Position numbers and translations under genes: made by a program
Part shown: positions 17,485 through 31,462 of the stretch, one piece after another
Layout of the letters: each line of letters begins with the position of its first letter
Numbering within the stretch: the stretch's first letter is position 1
The notes under the pieces: generated by a model
Database searches by the model: none
Seen by the model: the letters and a program-made list of their open reading frames with translations, nothing else
What the model was told of the DNA's origin: nothing
Origin: Flavobacteriaceae bacterium
Lineage (GTDB): Bacteria > Bacteroidota > Bacteroidia > Flavobacteriales > Flavobacteriaceae
Direction of reading: 5' to 3'
Length of the DNA: 37,102 bases
Assembly (NCBI GenBank): GCA_009886755.1
Contig: QXYU01000010.1
Span: 1 to 37,102, forward strand

Positions 17485-20391
17485 ATGATTCGAAAAACCT
17501 TAATCCTACTTTTAGGTACACTGTGCTATGCACAAGCCCAACCCAATCCTTTACTTTCTTCCGATATTGCTGCACAACAGCAATGGGTTGATAGCATTTA
17601 TTCTACCCTATCGGTGGATGAAAAAATTGGACAACTATTCATTCCGATGGTTCGTCCTCTTAGCCAAAGCCCGAAGCACATTGAAGAAATGCTTCGACTG
17701 GTAGAAAAAAAACATGTGGGGGGTGTGGTTTTTTCTACAGGACACCCAATACTTCAAACAAAAATTTTAAATCAACTACAGACCAAGGCGCGCATTCCTT
17801 TGCTGGCAACCCTTGATGGCGAGTGGGGTGTTGGCATGCGTATGGACTCTGTTATTGACTACCCTTGGAATCTAACGCTTGGAGCAATTCAAGACAACGA
17901 ATTGATTTTTCAAATAGGAAAGAGAATAGGGGAGCAGCACTTAAGGATGGGACTTCAGATGAATTATGCTCCCGTTTTGGATGTAAATATCGATCCGTTG
18001 AATCCGATTATTGGTAATCGTTCGTTCGGAGAAGATCCGCAAAACGTTGCAGCGAAAGGATTTGCTATGATGCGAGGGCTTCGAGCTGCTGGGGTTTTGA
18101 CGTCGGGGAAGCACTTTCCCGGTCATGGCGACACCCAAGACGATTCTCACAAAACACTACCCACCCTGTCTGTGTCAAAAGAACGTTTGGATTCTGTTGA
18201 ATTGATACCTTTTCGAAAATTAATAGCAGAAGGCATTCATTCCATAATGATTGGGCACCTCAACATTCCAGATCTTGTTGAAAATAATCGCCCTAGTAGC
18301 ATTGCATCAGTAGTTGTTCAAGATTTATTGCAAAAGCAAATGGGCTTTAAAGGCTTGGTTATCACGGACGCAATGGATATGAAAGGTGTGGTTGATTTTG
18401 TTGGAAAATCCAATGCCGATTTGGAAGCATTCTTGGCAGGGAATGATGTGATTTTGATATCCAACGAAAACCTTGCAGGGATCAAAGCAATCAAACATGC
18501 CGTCACTAGAGGACAAATCACGGAAGTCCGTTTGGCACATTCTGTCAAAAAAGTATTGGCCGCTAAATATCTAGTAGGATTGGATCAATACCAGCCTACT
18601 GAGATTACCAATATCACCAAAGACCTGAATTCTCCAAAAGACAGCTTGCTCTACAACAAAGCAATGAGTGCTGCATTGACCTTACTTGAAAATAAAAAGA
18701 AACTATTACCGCTTCAGATGGAGGCCGAATACGGATATTTGAAGCTAGGGGATGCCAGTGGTGACGCTTTTTTCGATCAGTTGAAGCAGTATGGAAACAT
18801 CCAACGAATTGAGGGAACAGACTATAAGCGCATACAATCCCAAATAAAAAATTTTAAAGCCTTAATTGTCGGCTTTCATCGTTCGGATGCAACTCCTTGG
18901 AAATCGGAACGATTTAATAAGCAGCAACGTCAATTGTTGCGAAAACTTCAACAGCTTGATATCCCTGTGATTCTTTCTGTATTTGTCAAACCCTACGCCA
19001 TTGCCCAACTCAAAGATCCAAAGGGCTTTGACGGGCTGGTGTTGAATTATCAAAACAACCCGATGGTTCAGCGTTTGAGTGCGGATTTACTTTTCGGTAT
19101 TCAAGGAGCCCATGGAAAATTACCCGTACGAATTGGCCAGGATTATCCTGTGGGGCATGGCTTGCAATTACCATCGCTAGATCGCTTGGGCTATGCCACT
19201 CCAACAAGCGTGGGTTTTTCCCCTGAAAAACTCAAGAATATTGATGCGCTGGCTAAGGTAGCCATTGATTCAGCGATGACTCCAGGAATGCAAATTCTCA
19301 TTGCCCGGCACGGAAAGATTGTATACCAAAAAAGTTTCGGTCACCATACCTATGAGAAAAAACAAGTCATTCAGAATTCTGATTTGTATGATCTGGCTTC
19401 ATTAACCAAAATATTGGGTACGTTGCCGTTGGTCATTCAAGCGGTAGATTCCACCCATATTGATTTTGACACAACTCTGGGAGAACTCCTTCCCGAATGG
19501 AAACAGAGTAATAAAAGTAACATCACTGTAAAGCAGATGTTGTCACACTATGCGCAACTAACTCCTTGGATTCCTTATTATAAAGAAACTCTTGATAGGA
19601 ATCAAAAACCGAAAAGAAAGTTTTATCGCAATAAAAAATCACGACGTTTTCCCATAGCAGTTAGTGAAAATTTGTTTTTAAAAAGGGATTACAAAAAACA
19701 AATTTATGAGGCGATCGAAAAGAGCCCTATGTTGGATTCACTATATTACAAATATTCAGATTTACCATTTATTATTTTTAAAGAGTATTTGGAACGCCGC
19801 TACAATGAACCTTTGGATCAGTTGATGGAAGAACACTTCTACGATCCCTTGGGATTGGAACGAACCATGTATAATCCATTAAGGCGATTTGATAAAAAAG
19901 AGATTGTACCATCAGAGATTGATAATTATTTCCGTTATTCCAAGCTGGATGGCTATGTTCACGATATGGGCGCTGCTCAATTGGGAGGTGTTGGCGGTCA
20001 TGCGGGTCTATTTTCAAACGCTTATGAGGTTGCTGTGATGATGCAGCTCTATCTTCAAAAAGGACGTTATAATGGGCAACAGTACTTTAGTGAAACGACT
20101 TTTGATGCTTTTAACACTTGTTATTATTGCGATCAAAATGTCAGGCGAGGCATTGGATTGGATAAGCCTTTCCTAGATGGAGGTAGCAAAAACACCTGCG
20201 ATTCTATCTCCTCTAAGAGTTTTGGTCATCTTGGATTTACAGGCACCTATGCATGGGCTGATCCAGAAACCGAAATAGTCTTCGTATTTTTATCCAATCG
20301 CACTTATCCCACTATGGAAAATAATTTACTGGGAGAACATAATATTAGAACTCGCATGCAGCAGTTGGTATACGATGCACGCAACGATTAA
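17485..20391 (+). CDS. GH3 beta-N-acetylhexosaminidase (NagZ-like) fused to serine beta-lactamase-fold amidase
   Basis: A 968-aa exported enzyme with a signal peptide (about 1-18). Residues about 40-370 form a GH3 NagZ-type domain: GKHFPGHGDT (208-217), the Asp/His loop DDSH (219-222) and nucleophile Asp295 (VITDAMDMKG). A GH3 C-terminal-like domain follows (about 400-580). Residues about 595-968 form a class C beta-lactamase fold with Ser639-x-x-Lys642 (SLTK), Tyr757-Ser-Asp and HLG (915-917). NagZ removes terminal GlcNAc from muropeptides; the related AmiE protein takes the peptide off MurNAc. A fused pair would process peptidoglycan ends in the periplasm. The split of activity is inferred from known NagZ and AmiE families. 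Confidence 0.88.
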   Translation: MIRKTLILLLGTLCYAQAQPNPLLSSDIAAQQQWVDSIYSTLSVDEKIGQLFIPMVRPLSQSPKHIEEMLRLVEKKHVGGVVFSTGHPILQTKILNQLQTKARIPLLATLDGEWGVGMRMDSVIDYPWNLTLGAIQDNELIFQIGKRIGEQHLRMGLQMNYAPVLDVNIDPLNPIIGNRSFGEDPQNVAAKGFAMMRGLRAAGVLTSGKHFPGHGDTQDDSHKTLPTLSVSKERLDSVELIPFRKLIAEGIHSIMIGHLNIPDLVENNRPSSIASVVVQDLLQKQMGFKGLVITDAMDMKGVVDFVGKSNADLEAFLAGNDVILISNENLAGIKAIKHAVTRGQITEVRLAHSVKKVLAAKYLVGLDQYQPTEITNITKDLNSPKDSLLYNKAMSAALTLLENKKKLLPLQMEAEYGYLKLGDASGDAFFDQLKQYGNIQRIEGTDYKRIQSQIKNFKALIVGFHRSDATPWKSERFNKQQRQLLRKLQQLDIPVILSVFVKPYAIAQLKDPKGFDGLVLNYQNNPMVQRLSADLLFGIQGAHGKLPVRIGQDYPVGHGLQLPSLDRLGYATPTSVGFSPEKLKNIDALAKVAIDSAMTPGMQILIARHGKIVYQKSFGHHTYEKKQVIQNSDLYDLASLTKILGTLPLVIQAVDSTHIDFDTTLGELLPEWKQSNKSNITVKQMLSHYAQLTPWIPYYKETLDRNQKPKRKFYRNKKSRRFPIAVSENLFLKRDYKKQIYEAIEKSPMLDSLYYKYSDLPFIIFKEYLERRYNEPLDQLMEEHFYDPLGLERTMYNPLRRFDKKEIVPSEIDNYFRYSKLDGYVHDMGAAQLGGVGGHAGLFSNAYEVAVMMQLYLQKGRYNGQQYFSETTFDAFNTCYYCDQNVRRGIGLDKPFLDGGSKNTCDSISSKSFGHLGFTGTYAWADPETEIVFVFLSNRTYPTMENNLLGEHNIRTRMQQLVYDARND

Positions 20392-25265: not shown

Positions 25266-26480
25266 TCAAAACTGATAGGAGTAAGCCGTAAGTTGCGCTT
25301 TTATCTGAGGGGATAGCACGTTTTTCACTTGACGGACAAATCGTTGTTCCTTGGTAGGTGTTTGAAGCTTAGAAACCAATCCTTTGGGAAGTTCAATTTG
25401 TAATTGTTGGATAAATTTTTCTGTGGTACGAAGGTTTTGATGCCCCAAATACAACTGAATTTTTTCTACAGATGTATTATTAATCACCTTATTGTAGGCA
25501 AAAGTATTGCGAGCACTTTCAAATGTTATATGGCGCGCGATACCCGCTTTGATGCCCCACTTGAGAAGCTGAACGTTTGCCTCGCTTGACGAACGCAGTA
25601 AGGGAAAAACCGTTGTTTCGTCTTGCAGGGGATTCCCAAGCAGTTGTTTTATGTTTTCTGGAATCGGATAGAAAAAAGCTTTTGTATTTGTCTTTTCCGG
25701 CATTTTTATATACCATTCTTCACGCTCATGCTGTATATCTCGCCATTTCAGGGTACGCAGCTGCCCTAATTTAATCCCCATTTCAACAGACATTAGAAAG
25801 GCATTTTTCACGTCTTTATTGACAAAAGAAGCACTGCGAAGCGCCACAACCTCATATTGTTTTAAAACGGTTTTATATTTTATATTCTCCGTTTTGAAAG
25901 AGGCTGGTTGGTTTGGTAAATCTTTAACCATACCATCCAAATAGGCTTGTTGGACGATGGCATAAAATTTTTGATAATACAATCGAATGGTACTATTAGC
26001 CAAGAATGTTCCATTGGACTTCTTAGCCTCGTTTTGAAGAAAATGGTAAAATGAAGCACAATGTTTTTCATTGATGGATTTGAATTGTATGATAGGGGAG
26101 GCGAAATGCTTATACCAACGCTGCATTCCCATCCATACGGCTTCATTGTTCTTTTTGTTTGAAATTTTAACAGCTACTAGAGCTTTCAAATAAGGAACAA
26201 AAAAGGCTTTTTTGGTTTGTGTGCTCGAAAAAGGATAGTTCCCATCCTCTAGAAGTTGAGATTCTTTTTCCGAACGTATTTGATTTGCCTTTTTTAATAA
26301 ATGGATTTTTTCTTCTTCATAGTTTATAGAATCCTCGGTGGGGATATGAAAAGGAAGCGTCTCACGAATCCTTTTTGCTTTTCGCTTACCAAAGGCATCG
26401 GTATAATAGCCCATAAAAGTATCCAAGCGCAAGGATACGGTTCCATTTTTATTTTTTAATTGGCGTAATCGTATTTTCAT
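25266..26480 (-). CDS. Tyrosine-recombinase (phage integrase) relative lacking the catalytic Tyr
   Basis: A 404-aa protein, starting at the ATG at 26480; the frame is open 23 codons further, but MKIRLRQLKNKNGTVSLRLD is the usual arm-binding N-terminus. Layout is that of Bacteroidota integrases: arm-binding domain (about 1-80), SAM-like core-binding domain (about 90-190) and catalytic domain (about 205-375). The active-site set is damaged: Arg I becomes Lys237 (GIKLGQLRTLKW), the beta-hairpin Lys263 is kept, the box II His becomes Glu321 with Arg324 kept (FESARNTF), His347 is kept (YLGH) and the Tyr nucleophile becomes Phe356 (RTTEKF). It should bind DNA but not cut it. No partner phage genes or att sites were found. 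It is intact as a reading frame. Confidence 0.8.
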   Translation of the reverse strand: MKIRLRQLKNKNGTVSLRLDTFMGYYTDAFGKRKAKRIRETLPFHIPTEDSINYEEEKIHLLKKANQIRSEKESQLLEDGNYPFSSTQTKKAFFVPYLKALVAVKISNKKNNEAVWMGMQRWYKHFASPIIQFKSINEKHCASFYHFLQNEAKKSNGTFLANSTIRLYYQKFYAIVQQAYLDGMVKDLPNQPASFKTENIKYKTVLKQYEVVALRSASFVNKDVKNAFLMSVEMGIKLGQLRTLKWRDIQHEREEWYIKMPEKTNTKAFFYPIPENIKQLLGNPLQDETTVFPLLRSSSEANVQLLKWGIKAGIARHITFESARNTFAYNKVINNTSVEKIQLYLGHQNLRTTEKFIQQLQIELPKGLVSKLQTPTKEQRFVRQVKNVLSPQIKAQLTAYSYQF

Positions 26481-26580: not shown

Positions 26581-26604
26581 GTGTCATTTTAGTGCAAATG
26601 ACAC
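26581..26604. repeat. Perfect 9-bp palindrome GTGTCATTT / AAATGACAC
   Basis: Arms at 26581-26589 and 26596-26604 are perfect inverted complements around a 6-base centre (TAGTGC). It looks like a dimeric protein's operator rather than a terminator, since no T run follows. The first arm and the centre belong to the direct repeat that recurs at 26801. Confidence 0.5.
26582..26595 (+). repeat. Direct repeat copy 1, TGTCATTTTAGTGC
   Basis: Matches 26801-26814 (TGTCAATTTAGTGC) in 13 of 14 positions, 219 bases apart in the same orientation. Consensus TGTCAWTTTAGTGC. This copy forms one arm and the centre of the palindrome. Confidence 0.5.
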
Positions 26605-26800
26605 CCAAAAGGGCACAAAAAACCCTGGTATTGCTATTATGGTAATGAATAATCATAAACCAGTTCGCTCAGTAAGAAGAATTAATCCTTAAAAATGTAT
26701 CATTAAATTATGACACCAGATATATTTTTAATCAAAAGAGGTTCTTGAACGATTGAAGTGTTTTTCGATCAATTTTTTTTAAGAATTCAACACGTCAAAT

Positions 26801-26814
26801 TGTCAATTTAGTGC
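26801..26814 (+). repeat. Direct repeat copy 2, TGTCAATTTAGTGC
   Basis: Second copy of the repeat at 26582-26595, with one mismatch. It lies 59 bases upstream of the small HTH-like gene and lacks a good right-hand palindrome arm (TACATTGAACTGAC follows), so it may be a half or weak site. Confidence 0.45.
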
Positions 26815-26873
26815 TACATTGAACTGACTTTAGCATTTTGGGGGATTTCAGCCTTAAAGGATAACAGTTGCAT

Positions 26874-27080
26874 ATGATACTAAAGATTGACAAAGCAGAT
26901 CCAATGGTGCGAGGCAAACTCTCCTATTTTAAAAAACTGGCCCATACCAATAGCATTCAATCAAGACAAAACTTAGTCAAAGCGGCTAAATTGTCGGGAT
27001 TTAAATCCTACCATGATTTGAGTAAAACCATTCGAACCTATTTCGACCTTAGTGTTGAAGAATTTATAAAAGGCCTTTAA
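26874..27080 (+). CDS. Small protein, possibly AraC-type HTH-like
   Basis: A 68-aa basic protein from the ATG at 26874; a TTG 6 bases upstream is also open. I do not recognise a named family. Its C-terminal half, AAKLSGFKSYHDLSKTIRTY followed by FDLSVEEFI, resembles the second helix-turn-helix of AraC/XylS regulators: the GF-xS-xxx-LS-x6-F-x-S-xxEF spacing matches the family pattern. The first HTH and the effector domain are missing. It may be a stand-alone small DNA-binding protein or a remnant. It follows the repeat-bearing control region and precedes the acyltransferase by 15 bases. Confidence 0.55.
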   Translation: MILKIDKADPMVRGKLSYFKKLAHTNSIQSRQNLVKAAKLSGFKSYHDLSKTIRTYFDLSVEEFIKGL

Positions 27081-28029: not shown

Positions 28030-28767
28030 ATGAAAAGGAATATAATCCCTTTGCTGTGCTTGTTGTTACTATCCTGTAGCGATAATAATGATGACTCGGT
28101 TATGAATACTCTCCCTACCGATTCCTTTGAAAATTCAGGAAACCTATATTTTGAATCTGGAATTTGTGTATGTCCCAATGCTGTTGTGGGGGATCAAGAT
28201 AAAATAGAGGGGACTATTTATACTGCGGTGGATAACAATACAATCAAAGCGCAATTGGATAGGGGAAACATTAATTTATGCACCACATTGGTGACCAATA
28301 TGTCTGGAACGGCCAATCCATTGGCAAACTTTTTTGATAACAACGCTTTTAATGCCAATATTGGCTTTTGGGATGTTTCCAATGTAACCAATATGGATGG
28401 GATGTTTTTCAACGCCACGGATTTCAATCAAAACATAAGTCAGTGGGATGTGTCTAAGGTGGACAATATGGGAAGCTTATTTAAAAATGCTTCTTCATTC
28501 GATCAGGACATAAGCAAATGGAATACGGGGAATGTAACAAAAATGCTAGATCTTTTTGCTCTAGCTTCGAAATTCAATCAGGATATTAGTGGCTGGAATA
28601 CTGCCCAAGCAACTAGCATGGATGGAATGTTTCGGGAAGCACAATTATTCAATCAGGACTTATCTGGCTGGTGCGTGCAAAACATTAGCTCTTTGCCCGA
28701 TAACTTTGCATCTGCTTCAGGACTTAGTGAATCGAATTACCCAGTATGGGGTAATTGTCCTGGCTGA
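28030..28767 (+). CDS. BspA-family (DUF285) repeat lipoprotein
   Basis: A 245-aa surface lipoprotein: lipobox LLLSC with Cys16, an acidic Asn/Asp linker (SDNNDDS), then five tandem 25-residue units starting at Phe107 of the type FNxxIxxWDVSNVTNMxxMFxxAxx (107-131, 132-156, 157-181, 182-206, 207-231). These are the BspA/DUF285 leucine-rich-like repeats seen in Bacteroidota and Mycoplasma surface proteins and usually linked to adhesion. The linker, SDNNDDS, after the Cys is the sort of acidic stretch that serves as a surface-export signal for Bacteroidota lipoproteins. The last unit has a Cys (GWCVQN), paired perhaps with the final WGNC. Compared with typical family members it is short. Confidence 0.88.
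   Translation: MKRNIIPLLCLLLLSCSDNNDDSVMNTLPTDSFENSGNLYFESGICVCPNAVVGDQDKIEGTIYTAVDNNTIKAQLDRGNINLCTTLVTNMSGTANPLANFFDNNAFNANIGFWDVSNVTNMDGMFFNATDFNQNISQWDVSKVDNMGSLFKNASSFDQDISKWNTGNVTKMLDLFALASKFNQDISGWNTAQATSMDGMFREAQLFNQDLSGWCVQNISSLPDNFASASGLSESNYPVWGNCPG
28348..28722 (+). repeat. Five tandem 75-bp coding units of the BspA-like gene
   Basis: Each unit encodes one 25-residue DUF285 repeat with no insertion or deletion between units. At DNA level the units have diverged, with the most similar stretch being TTCAATCAGGA at the starts of units 4 and 5. The exact phasing would allow unit number to change by recombination. Confidence 0.7.
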
Positions 28768-30094: not shown

Positions 30095-31462
30095 TTATTT
30101 CCCAATACAAAATTTAGAAAAAATATTTCCAAGGAGGTCTTCGGTATTTACTTCTCCTGTTATAGCTCCTAAGGCATCAAGTGCGACATTAAGATCAATG
30201 CTTAATAAGTCTGAGGGGATATCATTAACCATTCCTGTTTTGATGGCGTCCAGGGATTCCAGTGTATTCTGGATTGCGGTGTAGTGCCGCATATTACTGA
30301 CTATAATATCGGATTGGGAAAAATTTTGTTGTTGAAGCTCAATAAGCAATTTTTTTAGCCTGTCAAGAGTGTTTTCTTGCTTGGTGGAAAGGGCTAGATG
30401 TAGATGCTTTTTAAAAGTAGGAGGGTGTTCTTCGTCAGAGGTTAATAAATCAATTTTGTTTTGAATCAAAATAACCTGTCCATCCCCTTTAAGGTTTTCG
30501 ATCTCTTTTTCAAGATTTAAGTCTGCATCCGTAGCATCGTAAACATAGAGGATTATTTGAGCCATAGCCATTTTTTCTAAGGCTTTTTGGACTCCAATAG
30601 CTTCAATAGAATCTGTGGTGTTTCGTAAACCTGCCGTATCAATGAATCGAAAACTATACCCTTCTAGGGTTAGGGTATCCTCAATACTGTCACGAGTGGT
30701 TCCTGCAATGTCAGAAACAATGGCGCGTTCTTCGTTCAAAAGAGCATTGAGTAAGGAAGATTTGCCAGCATTCGGCTTTCCTACGATAGCAATCGGAATT
30801 CCCTTTTTTATGACACTTCCTTGGGTAAAGGAATCGGCTAGTTTCTTGAGCTTATTTTCTAGGGTATGGAGTAGTTTGGAGAGTTCTTTACGGTCGGCAA
30901 AGGCAACATCTTCTTCTGAAAAATCGAGTTCTAAAGCAATCAAGGAAGCGAAATCTAACAGTTGCTGGCGTAGCTCTTGAATTTCTTGGGAATAACCACC
31001 TCGCATTTGCTGTAGGGCTAGACGATGGGCACCTTCAGATTCTGCTGCTATCAAATCCGAAACGGCTTCGGCCTGACTCAAATCCATCTTTTGATTCAAA
31101 TAGGCCCGAAGAGTAAACGCTCCCGGTTGTGCTGCTTGCGCTCCCTTTTGAATACATAGTTCCATAATCCGTTGTAGAATAAACGGGGAGCCGTGACAAG
31201 AAATTTCTACAACAGTTTCACCCGTGTAGGAACGAGGGGCTATGAAAGGAGTAACAAGTACTTCATCGATGATCTGTCCATTGTCATGAAAGATGCCCAG
31301 GGTGGTTTGATGCGAGGCAATGGAAGTCAGTAGGATTCCATTTTTAGCTTTAAAGTGCAAACTTACGATCTCAAGAGCTTGCGACCCCGACAAACGCAAT
31401 ATCCCAATGGCGCCAGCACCTTGCGGAGTGGATAGTGCGATGATGGTTCCTTCGTTGAACAT
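30095..31462 (-). CDS. mnmE: tRNA uridine-5-carboxymethylaminomethyl modification GTPase MnmE
   Basis: With MnmG, MnmE makes the cmnm5 modification on the wobble uridine of certain tRNAs, using a folate-bound one-carbon unit and GTP hydrolysis. The 455-aa protein has the folate-binding N-terminal domain (1-118, with GAGAIGILRLSG), a helical domain and an inserted G domain: G1 GKPNAGKSS (228-236), the IAGTTRD switch (252-258), G3 DTAGLR (275-280) and G4 NKID. The catalytic C-terminal CIGK (452-455) is present. The ATG at 31462 is 4 bases downstream of a TAnnTTTG box read on the minus strand. Confidence 0.97.
   Translation of the reverse strand: MFNEGTIIALSTPQGAGAIGILRLSGSQALEIVSLHFKAKNGILLTSIASHQTTLGIFHDNGQIIDEVLVTPFIAPRSYTGETVVEISCHGSPFILQRIMELCIQKGAQAAQPGAFTLRAYLNQKMDLSQAEAVSDLIAAESEGAHRLALQQMRGGYSQEIQELRQQLLDFASLIALELDFSEEDVAFADRKELSKLLHTLENKLKKLADSFTQGSVIKKGIPIAIVGKPNAGKSSLLNALLNEERAIVSDIAGTTRDSIEDTLTLEGYSFRFIDTAGLRNTTDSIEAIGVQKALEKMAMAQIILYVYDATDADLNLEKEIENLKGDGQVILIQNKIDLLTSDEEHPPTFKKHLHLALSTKQENTLDRLKKLLIELQQQNFSQSDIIVSNMRHYTAIQNTLESLDAIKTGMVNDIPSDLLSIDLNVALDALGAITGEVNTEDLLGNIFSKFCIGK

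Follow-up and report, generated by a model that had tools for sequence, protein, structure and literature searches.

A probable domesticated integrase with a predicted dead active site in small-genome Flavobacteriaceae

Gene architecture and active site

The stretch of DNA analyzed here, referred to as the window, comprises 37,102 nucleotides of contig QXYU01000010.1 (assembly GCA_009886755.1) from a Flavobacteriaceae bacterium. Its minus strand encodes, at positions 25266-26480, a protein of the tyrosine-recombinase fold that appears catalytically dead. The frame is intact over 404 codons, with the ATG at 26480 and the stop at 25266-25268, as an earlier note on this DNA had described. Pfam scored the protein at 49.4 bits for Phage_integrase (PF00589; cut-off 27.1) and at 31.3 bits for Phage_int_SAM_5 (cut-off 22.3). 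Four segments follow one another on the minus strand: a predicted arm DNA-binding domain (26340-26480), in which residues 1-47 form three strands and are followed by a helix at residues 54-78; a core-binding SAM-like domain (25896-26204; residues 93-195, with a PF13102 match at 94-189); a catalytic-fold domain that lacks the catalytic set (25389-25883; residues 200-364); and a C-terminal tail (25269-25388; residues 365-404) ending in L..Y...F. No Pfam arm-domain family matched the N-terminus, so the arm domain is assigned from the predicted structure alone, where the block has pLDDT values of 67-92. Together with the SAM_5 match, this predicted domain gives the arm-plus-core-binding layout of IntCTnDOT-type integrases.

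A structure model from 31 sequences (pLDDT 79.8, pTM 0.48, with residues 363-389 and 398-404 low) was used in place of one from three sequences, which reached a pLDDT of 49. Its best fold matches were tyrosine recombinases, namely XerA, lambda Int and the integron and Tn1549 integrases, and lambda Int (1z1b) aligned from residue 5 with an rmsd of 17.7; the integrase fold that had been predicted is thus present in the model. Matches were also found to YopR, also called MrpR (8bj6; Z 11.3, rmsd 16.8 over 239 residues, rank 46 among the 50 matches listed), and to SroF (PDB 9rgl and 9rd5; Z 11.7 and 11.1). Because these appear late among the 50, with topoisomerases scoring alike, we read them as fold kinship only.

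Active tyrosine recombinases carry an R-K-H-R-H pentad plus a Tyr nucleophile, a set that the window protein does not have. At the Arg I, box II His, Arg II, second His and Tyr columns it has K237, E321, R324, H347 and F356, positions that read R, H, R, H and Y in 28 of 28 integrases. We chose these 28 from 80 viral-contig loci, which had been kept from the 151 matches of a search whose query alignment consisted of active relatives. The Phe356 codon, TTT on the minus strand, was confirmed at 25415-25413, and the protein contains no tyrosine between residues 344 and 400, which leaves no other Tyr at the nucleophile position. Among 76 relatives outside the dead-integrase family, 74 retain the Tyr, the two exceptions belonging to a second Phe lineage described below, and 11 lack Arg I. 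In IntCTnDOT-type integrases Arg I may sit elsewhere in the protein, according to PMC8138268, so its loss by itself is weak evidence.

The catalytic Lys of active relatives falls in column 264, which is Lys in 28 of 28 and, in another set, 27 of 27; this column is Thr in the window protein and T, A and G in the three other members of the genus. The neighboring Lys263 column is variable (K in 15 of 27), and Lys263 could still be the catalytic Lys, given a one-residue register shift of the hairpin. The active-site Asp, column 240, is D in 27 of 27 chosen relatives and Gln240 in the window protein. With columns 264 and 240 taken into account, the changes therefore affect four or five of the seven positions in the active site. 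The earlier note had counted three changes in six positions; the three it named (K237, E321 and F356) stand but its tally was too low, and among the residues it listed as remaining, Arg324 and His347 are retained and Lys263 is doubtful. Judged from its residues, the protein is catalytically dead, having lost its nucleophile and the greater part of its active site.

Scanning 18 other window proteins with Pfam returned no phage family. This agrees with the earlier note's remark that the gene has no phage neighbors, but that remark overlooked that the gene lies downstream of a site where islands insert. The site is the 3' end of mnmE (30095-31462, minus strand). The gene is on the same strand as mnmE and downstream of it, with ∼3.6 kb and five other frames intervening. 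Upstream of the gene is a divergent small open frame on the plus strand (26865-27077; 71 codons, stop to stop). Weak AraC-type helix-turn-helix matches came from two orthologues of this frame, at E values of 0.00038 and 0.011 that did not reach the Pfam cut-off, and none came from the window copy. Elsewhere in the window, 28030-28767 encodes a DUF285/PARCEL-repeat protein; its gene and an HI0933-like one separate mnmE from a small ORF, and neither had a match at that place in a second genome of the genus (G003). A single frame at 17485-20391 combines GH3 glycosidase and beta-lactamase-like domains.

Orthologues, chromosomal place and selection

The Lys/Glu/Phe set is fixed in all four genomes of the genus (the window's own, G000, and G001 to G003), whose other three proteins are 91, 74 and 65% identical to the window protein; the conservation among orthologues proposed in the earlier note was thus found. 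A search of 397 genomes of the taxonomic family revealed full-length homologues in two more small-genome genera (G181, G368 and G226), and a genus search added G754. The family thus consists of eight full-length members in three small-genome genera, none of which contains a stop. The genus alignment left out L028, which is partial, and L031, L032 and L035, which are repeats of members. All eight members share the C-terminal tail, which is absent from the active relatives aligned. None of the eight has the box II His, and two carry Lys in place of Arg II. The nucleophile position is F in five members (G000 to G003 and G368), L in two (G181 and G754) and Y in one, G226. This most divergent member retains R, D, K, R, H and Y and could be the least decayed. 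Because G226 retains most catalytic residues, conservation of the arm domain predates the full catalytic loss.

Two gene blocks recur together around the gene's location, GH3-BshA-penicillin acylase and, opposite it, mnmE-GNAT-ORF378-YfhO. In G000, G003 and G368 it lies between the penicillin-acylase gene and mnmE. For G001, G002, G181, G226 and G754 the contig piece read does not include mnmE (14 kb were read for G754); there the gene is found at the acylase end, and in some of these genomes GH20, another frame or both intervene. A further genome, G046, has the same block with no integrase between. As judged from the sequences, the gene is conserved across three genera at the same location, and it is probably inherited vertically. 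A scan of viral contigs with the dead-family alignment yielded no relative (92 stretches fit a pattern, none of them confirmed), and relatives in phage and plasmid records were below 29% identity. Among the entries listed, literature searches of an open-licence library showed no publication on the dead-integrase family.

Selection was measured on G000 and G001, the sole unsaturated pair in the genus, most other pairs being saturated at synonymous sites. Over 417 codons dN/dS was 0.084 (NG86) or 0.140 (YN00), and over 404 codons 0.063 (NG86), with values of 0.038 for the catalytic domain alone and 0.034 for the arm domain. The purifying selection that had been anticipated is therefore evident, and inside the genus it constrains the catalytic domain as well as the arm. 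Neighboring genes of the same pair gave 0.083 or 0.104 (GH20) and 0.097 or 0.095 (acyltransferase). In a neutral simulation with 0.34 changes per site, 0 of 500 copies escaped a stop; with 0.1 changes per site, 3 of 500 did.

Between genera, the constraint is distributed differently. In 14 between-genus pairs of seven members, residues 1-47 are 69.5% identical and residues 200-364 only 30.3%, which makes the arm the best-conserved part of the protein; in 27 chosen relatives (121 pairs at 25-42% overall identity), the arm is 37% and the catalytic domain 46% identical. The ratio of arm to catalytic identity is 2.0-2.85 in all 14 between-genus pairs, compared to a mean of 0.81 and a maximum of 1.33 in the 121 pairs of relatives. 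Of all the evidence, this inverted constraint points most strongly to the arm domain as the part maintained by selection, for DNA binding or, less probably, for protein or RNA binding. The arm domain is basic, with 11-13 K+R versus 3-5 D+E in the seven members. G754, found after the tree was made, was left out of the tree, the dN/dS and the domain-identity counts.

The mnmE site and the leader

Among 16 loci of relatives outside the dead family, mnmE is directly upstream on the same strand in 11 (L040-L047, L049, L053 and L055), a count that does not include loci L059-L078. An order-wide search, from which 10 duplicate sequences were removed, placed mnmE ≤1.5 kb away in 25 of 29 loci, some of them from genomes shared with the 16-locus set. 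In three of seven stretches of 20-60 kb containing mnmE, a copy of the mnmE 3' end recurs downstream: 21 bp at 30.8 kb (G441), 15 bp at 27.2 kb (G507) and 17 bp at 17.7 kb (G653). On these data the mnmE 3' end is an island attachment site used in Flavobacteriales, where the islands carry active relatives of the window gene. Salmonella genomic island 1 is reported to integrate at the 3' end of trmE, which is mnmE (PMC8409611). The last 18 nt of the window's mnmE (30095-30112, minus strand) are the equivalent of the island attachment core; the window contains no second copy of the mnmE 3' end at ≤3 mismatches.

Two genomes carry further sequence between the mnmE end and a copy of it. G002 has a probable 5.2-kb island at mnmE (L142:378-5580) with its own integrase, a 398-codon frame that is directly downstream of mnmE and looks canonical by eye, and two more open frames. 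The far end of this island, ∼5.2 kb past mnmE and immediately ahead of the small ORF found after mnmE in G003, is an imperfect mnmE-end copy (4 mismatches in 18). In G046, 1.2 kb separates the mnmE end from its copy (L140:7098-8307; 2 mismatches in 18), and this stretch holds one ORF, Fic-family-like by eye.

In a tree from which 19 near-identical rows and repeats of family members had been removed, seven members form one clade (100/96) that lies beside the mnmE-adjacent clade and is not nested in it; the rows nearest to the dead clade are not known to be mnmE-adjacent. Most tested outside relatives lie just 3' of mnmE and the window gene does so more loosely, and it is therefore probably a domesticated island integrase. 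Since the clades are neighboring rather than nested, we infer descent from an mnmE island from chromosomal place and search score; the tree itself neither proves nor excludes such an origin.

The leader of the gene contains repeated candidate binding sites. A palindrome, GTGTCATTT-6-AAATGACAC, is located at 26581-26604, ∼100 bp before the start codon. The leader has an additional copy of GGTGTCAT at 26710-26717, and TGTCAATTTAGTGC at 26801-26814 nearly repeats the palindrome arm (13 of 14). In its 8-bp-arm form the palindrome has a single exact match in each of G000 and G001; the other matches in the four genomes carry two mismatches and are located elsewhere. G003 has the palindrome only, with a longer spacer, and G002 has half sites only. 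The palindrome scores as a weak terminator, a role that is possible by score and disfavored since the T-run is lost in G003.

The word TGTCA[ACT], a motif picked after viewing the leaders, occurs six times in the 420-bp leaders of both G000 and G001, where shuffles average 1.15 and 0.72, respectively, and 0 of 1,000 shuffles reached as high in either; in G000 the divergent small frame contains one or more of the six. G368 has five in 700 bp (3/1,000), G002 three (26/1,000), G003 two (190/1,000) and G181 two (501/1,000); the G226 leader on its contig is only 103 bp. In an open 6-mer count, GTGTCA ranked first for over-representation in the leaders of G000 and G001 and second in that of G368, and it fell outside the top eight 6-mers of the G003 leader. 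Of the 9-mers common to all four genus leaders, four also occur in the G368 leader (2/1,000 shuffles) and none in that of G181. For G181 and G754, which share the arm domain, a look at 7.5-8 kb surrounding the gene revealed no GTGTCATT. Leaders of mnmE-adjacent integrases can have repeats of their own, a non-A/T-rich 7-mer occurring at least three times in 7 of 11 (by eye, without shuffle control), at the same leader position and of other sequence; examples are five copies of GGTGTAC in L109 and four of AGCAACA in L098.

The 10-mer TGTGTCATTT occurs eight times in G000, compared to three for its reversed control, and the leader is the sole intergenic place where it was seen in all four genomes. 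A genome-wide regulon was considered and rejected: the 10-mer occupies 25 places in the four genomes, and the shared ones outside the leader are in open frames of 203 or 580 codons. With so few copies, and the leader alone being intergenic in all four, no regulon is visible. Binding solely to its own leader would be hard to select for.

Function, alternatives and related systems

Since the cutting residues are lost and yet relatives keep the gene intact at the same place, we suggest that an integrase was converted into a DNA-binding protein. The reading that we favor, and consider probable, is that of a domesticated, catalytically dead arm-binding (IntCTnDOT-like) integrase that small-genome Flavobacteriaceae have inherited vertically and retained for DNA binding. 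Its ancestor would have arrived with an island inserted at the mnmE 3' end, the remainder of the island would have been lost, and later insertions would have parted the gene from mnmE. The protein may then bind the repeated GTGTCATTT sites and the palindrome through its arm and core-binding domains without cutting, and this binding might control the promoter of the gene itself and possibly that of the small divergent gene, making the protein a repressor or a local architectural protein; of these last steps we are less sure. Counting against this reading are the uneven occurrence of the sites across the family's leaders, the lack of a visible regulon, the N-terminus unmatched by any Pfam arm family, the tree position beside rather than inside the mnmE-adjacent clade, the missing attachment-site copy in the window and the catalytic residues kept by G226. 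Its job is likely non-cutting, sequence-specific DNA binding at the leader. The DNA-binding role predicted in the earlier note accords with the conservation of the arm domain. The integrase IntS of KplE1 has been reported to repress its own gene (PMC2951348).

The family might instead supply an accessory subunit or dominant-negative partner of an active integrase, or block the mnmE attachment site against islands. The retained fold and the low dN/dS of the catalytic domain would suit such a role, as would the use of mnmE as an insertion site in the order. However, G002 has the dead gene and nevertheless carries another integrase directly downstream of mnmE, with an imperfect mnmE-end copy ∼5.2 kb further on; a word resembling the attachment core precedes the dead gene of G181; and the only other integrase-family matches in G000 are two genes of Xer-like length with the full R-K-H-R-H-Y set. 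We regard this alternative as unlikely. Retention for protein–protein or RNA binding rather than DNA binding would fit the conserved arm domain of G181 and G754, where the leader motif was not found, but this domain is basic, and the CTnDOT integrase is described as using a domain of this kind to bind arm DNA sites (PMC8138268); we consider this alternative quite improbable. Very unlikely is persistent recombination by an unusual mechanism, for example through Y400, a tyrosine of the tail, working in trans. All eight members have Y400, the genus retains R324 and H347, and G226 still has most of its set; against this, the box II His is missing throughout, Arg II is Lys in two members, and Y400 is 44 residues past the nucleophile position, at a low-confidence end of the model. 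The least plausible alternative, a decaying pseudogene whose frame is open by chance, could draw on the variation of active-site residues between genera, but it is contradicted by dN/dS values of 0.06-0.14 depending on method, the neutral simulation, the eight stop-free members and an arm domain 70% identical between genera, and we reject it.

For the favored reading, a domesticated integrase that binds DNA, the closest precedent appears to be the phage repressor MrpR (YopR), the master repressor of the Bacillus subtilis prophage SPbeta and a dead integrase acting as a repressor (PMC10516654). Both proteins have the tyrosine-recombinase fold and have lost catalytic residues, and the role of MrpR is DNA binding. 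Repeated DNA elements at promoters, an MrpR-like trait, may have a counterpart in the candidate sites of the window leader. MrpR differs in keeping the Tyr and Lys, and the domains described for it in PMC10516654 are core-binding and catalytic only, whereas the window protein lacks the Tyr and has a predicted arm domain. MrpR is also prophage-encoded, whereas the window gene is outside any recognized prophage, in a conserved chromosomal neighborhood. SroF of phage phi3T, compared through its fold-search entries (PDB 9rgl and 9rd5) alone, shares the fold and bears "repressor" in its entry title, but is a phage protein. Integrases of the IntCTnDOT subgroup, including those of NBU1 and SGI1, have the same order of arm, core-binding and catalytic domains and occur in Bacteroidetes (PMC8138268); they are mobile-element integrases, whereas the window protein has neither nucleophile nor element. 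The domesticated Crypton recombinases (DUF3504) of animals have likewise lost the catalytic tyrosine and become conserved host genes, but are eukaryotic and, unlike the window protein, several are fused to other domains (PMC3212892).

A second Phe family occurs in five of seven genomes of another small-genome genus (L083:7328-8482, L087:7114-8250 and L288-L290), with G/S, K, K, H and F at the Arg I, box II His, Arg II, His and Tyr positions. The L083 and L087 loci are syntenic on both sides and 69% identical (dN 0.19, dS 1.28), and the gene is ∼35-39 kb from mnmE in the two genomes with both on one contig. This family falls outside the present one in the tree, in a weakly supported group (89/66); thus, loss of the Tyr to Phe with the frame kept probably occurred at least twice. 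G368 also has a second integrase (L261:1300-2469), 27-29% identical to that of the window and sister of the dead clade (98/85), in which Arg II is Lys and the Tyr is kept.

A broader proposal, which we offer tentatively and hold to be possible rather than probable, is that free-living bacteria have repeatedly made island integrases into chromosomal DNA-binding regulators. The arm would be the working part, the catalytic domain a scaffold and the conserved tail a new addition; the second Tyr-to-Phe lineage would be a probably independent instance, and the protein may police the mnmE hot spot or its own leader. If the favored reading is true, a chromosomal, vertically inherited bacterial case would join MrpR in a prophage and the Cryptons in animals, and stronger conservation of the arm than of the catalytic domain would be a measurable signature for finding others among annotated integrases. 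An integrase annotation would then not necessarily imply a mobile element.
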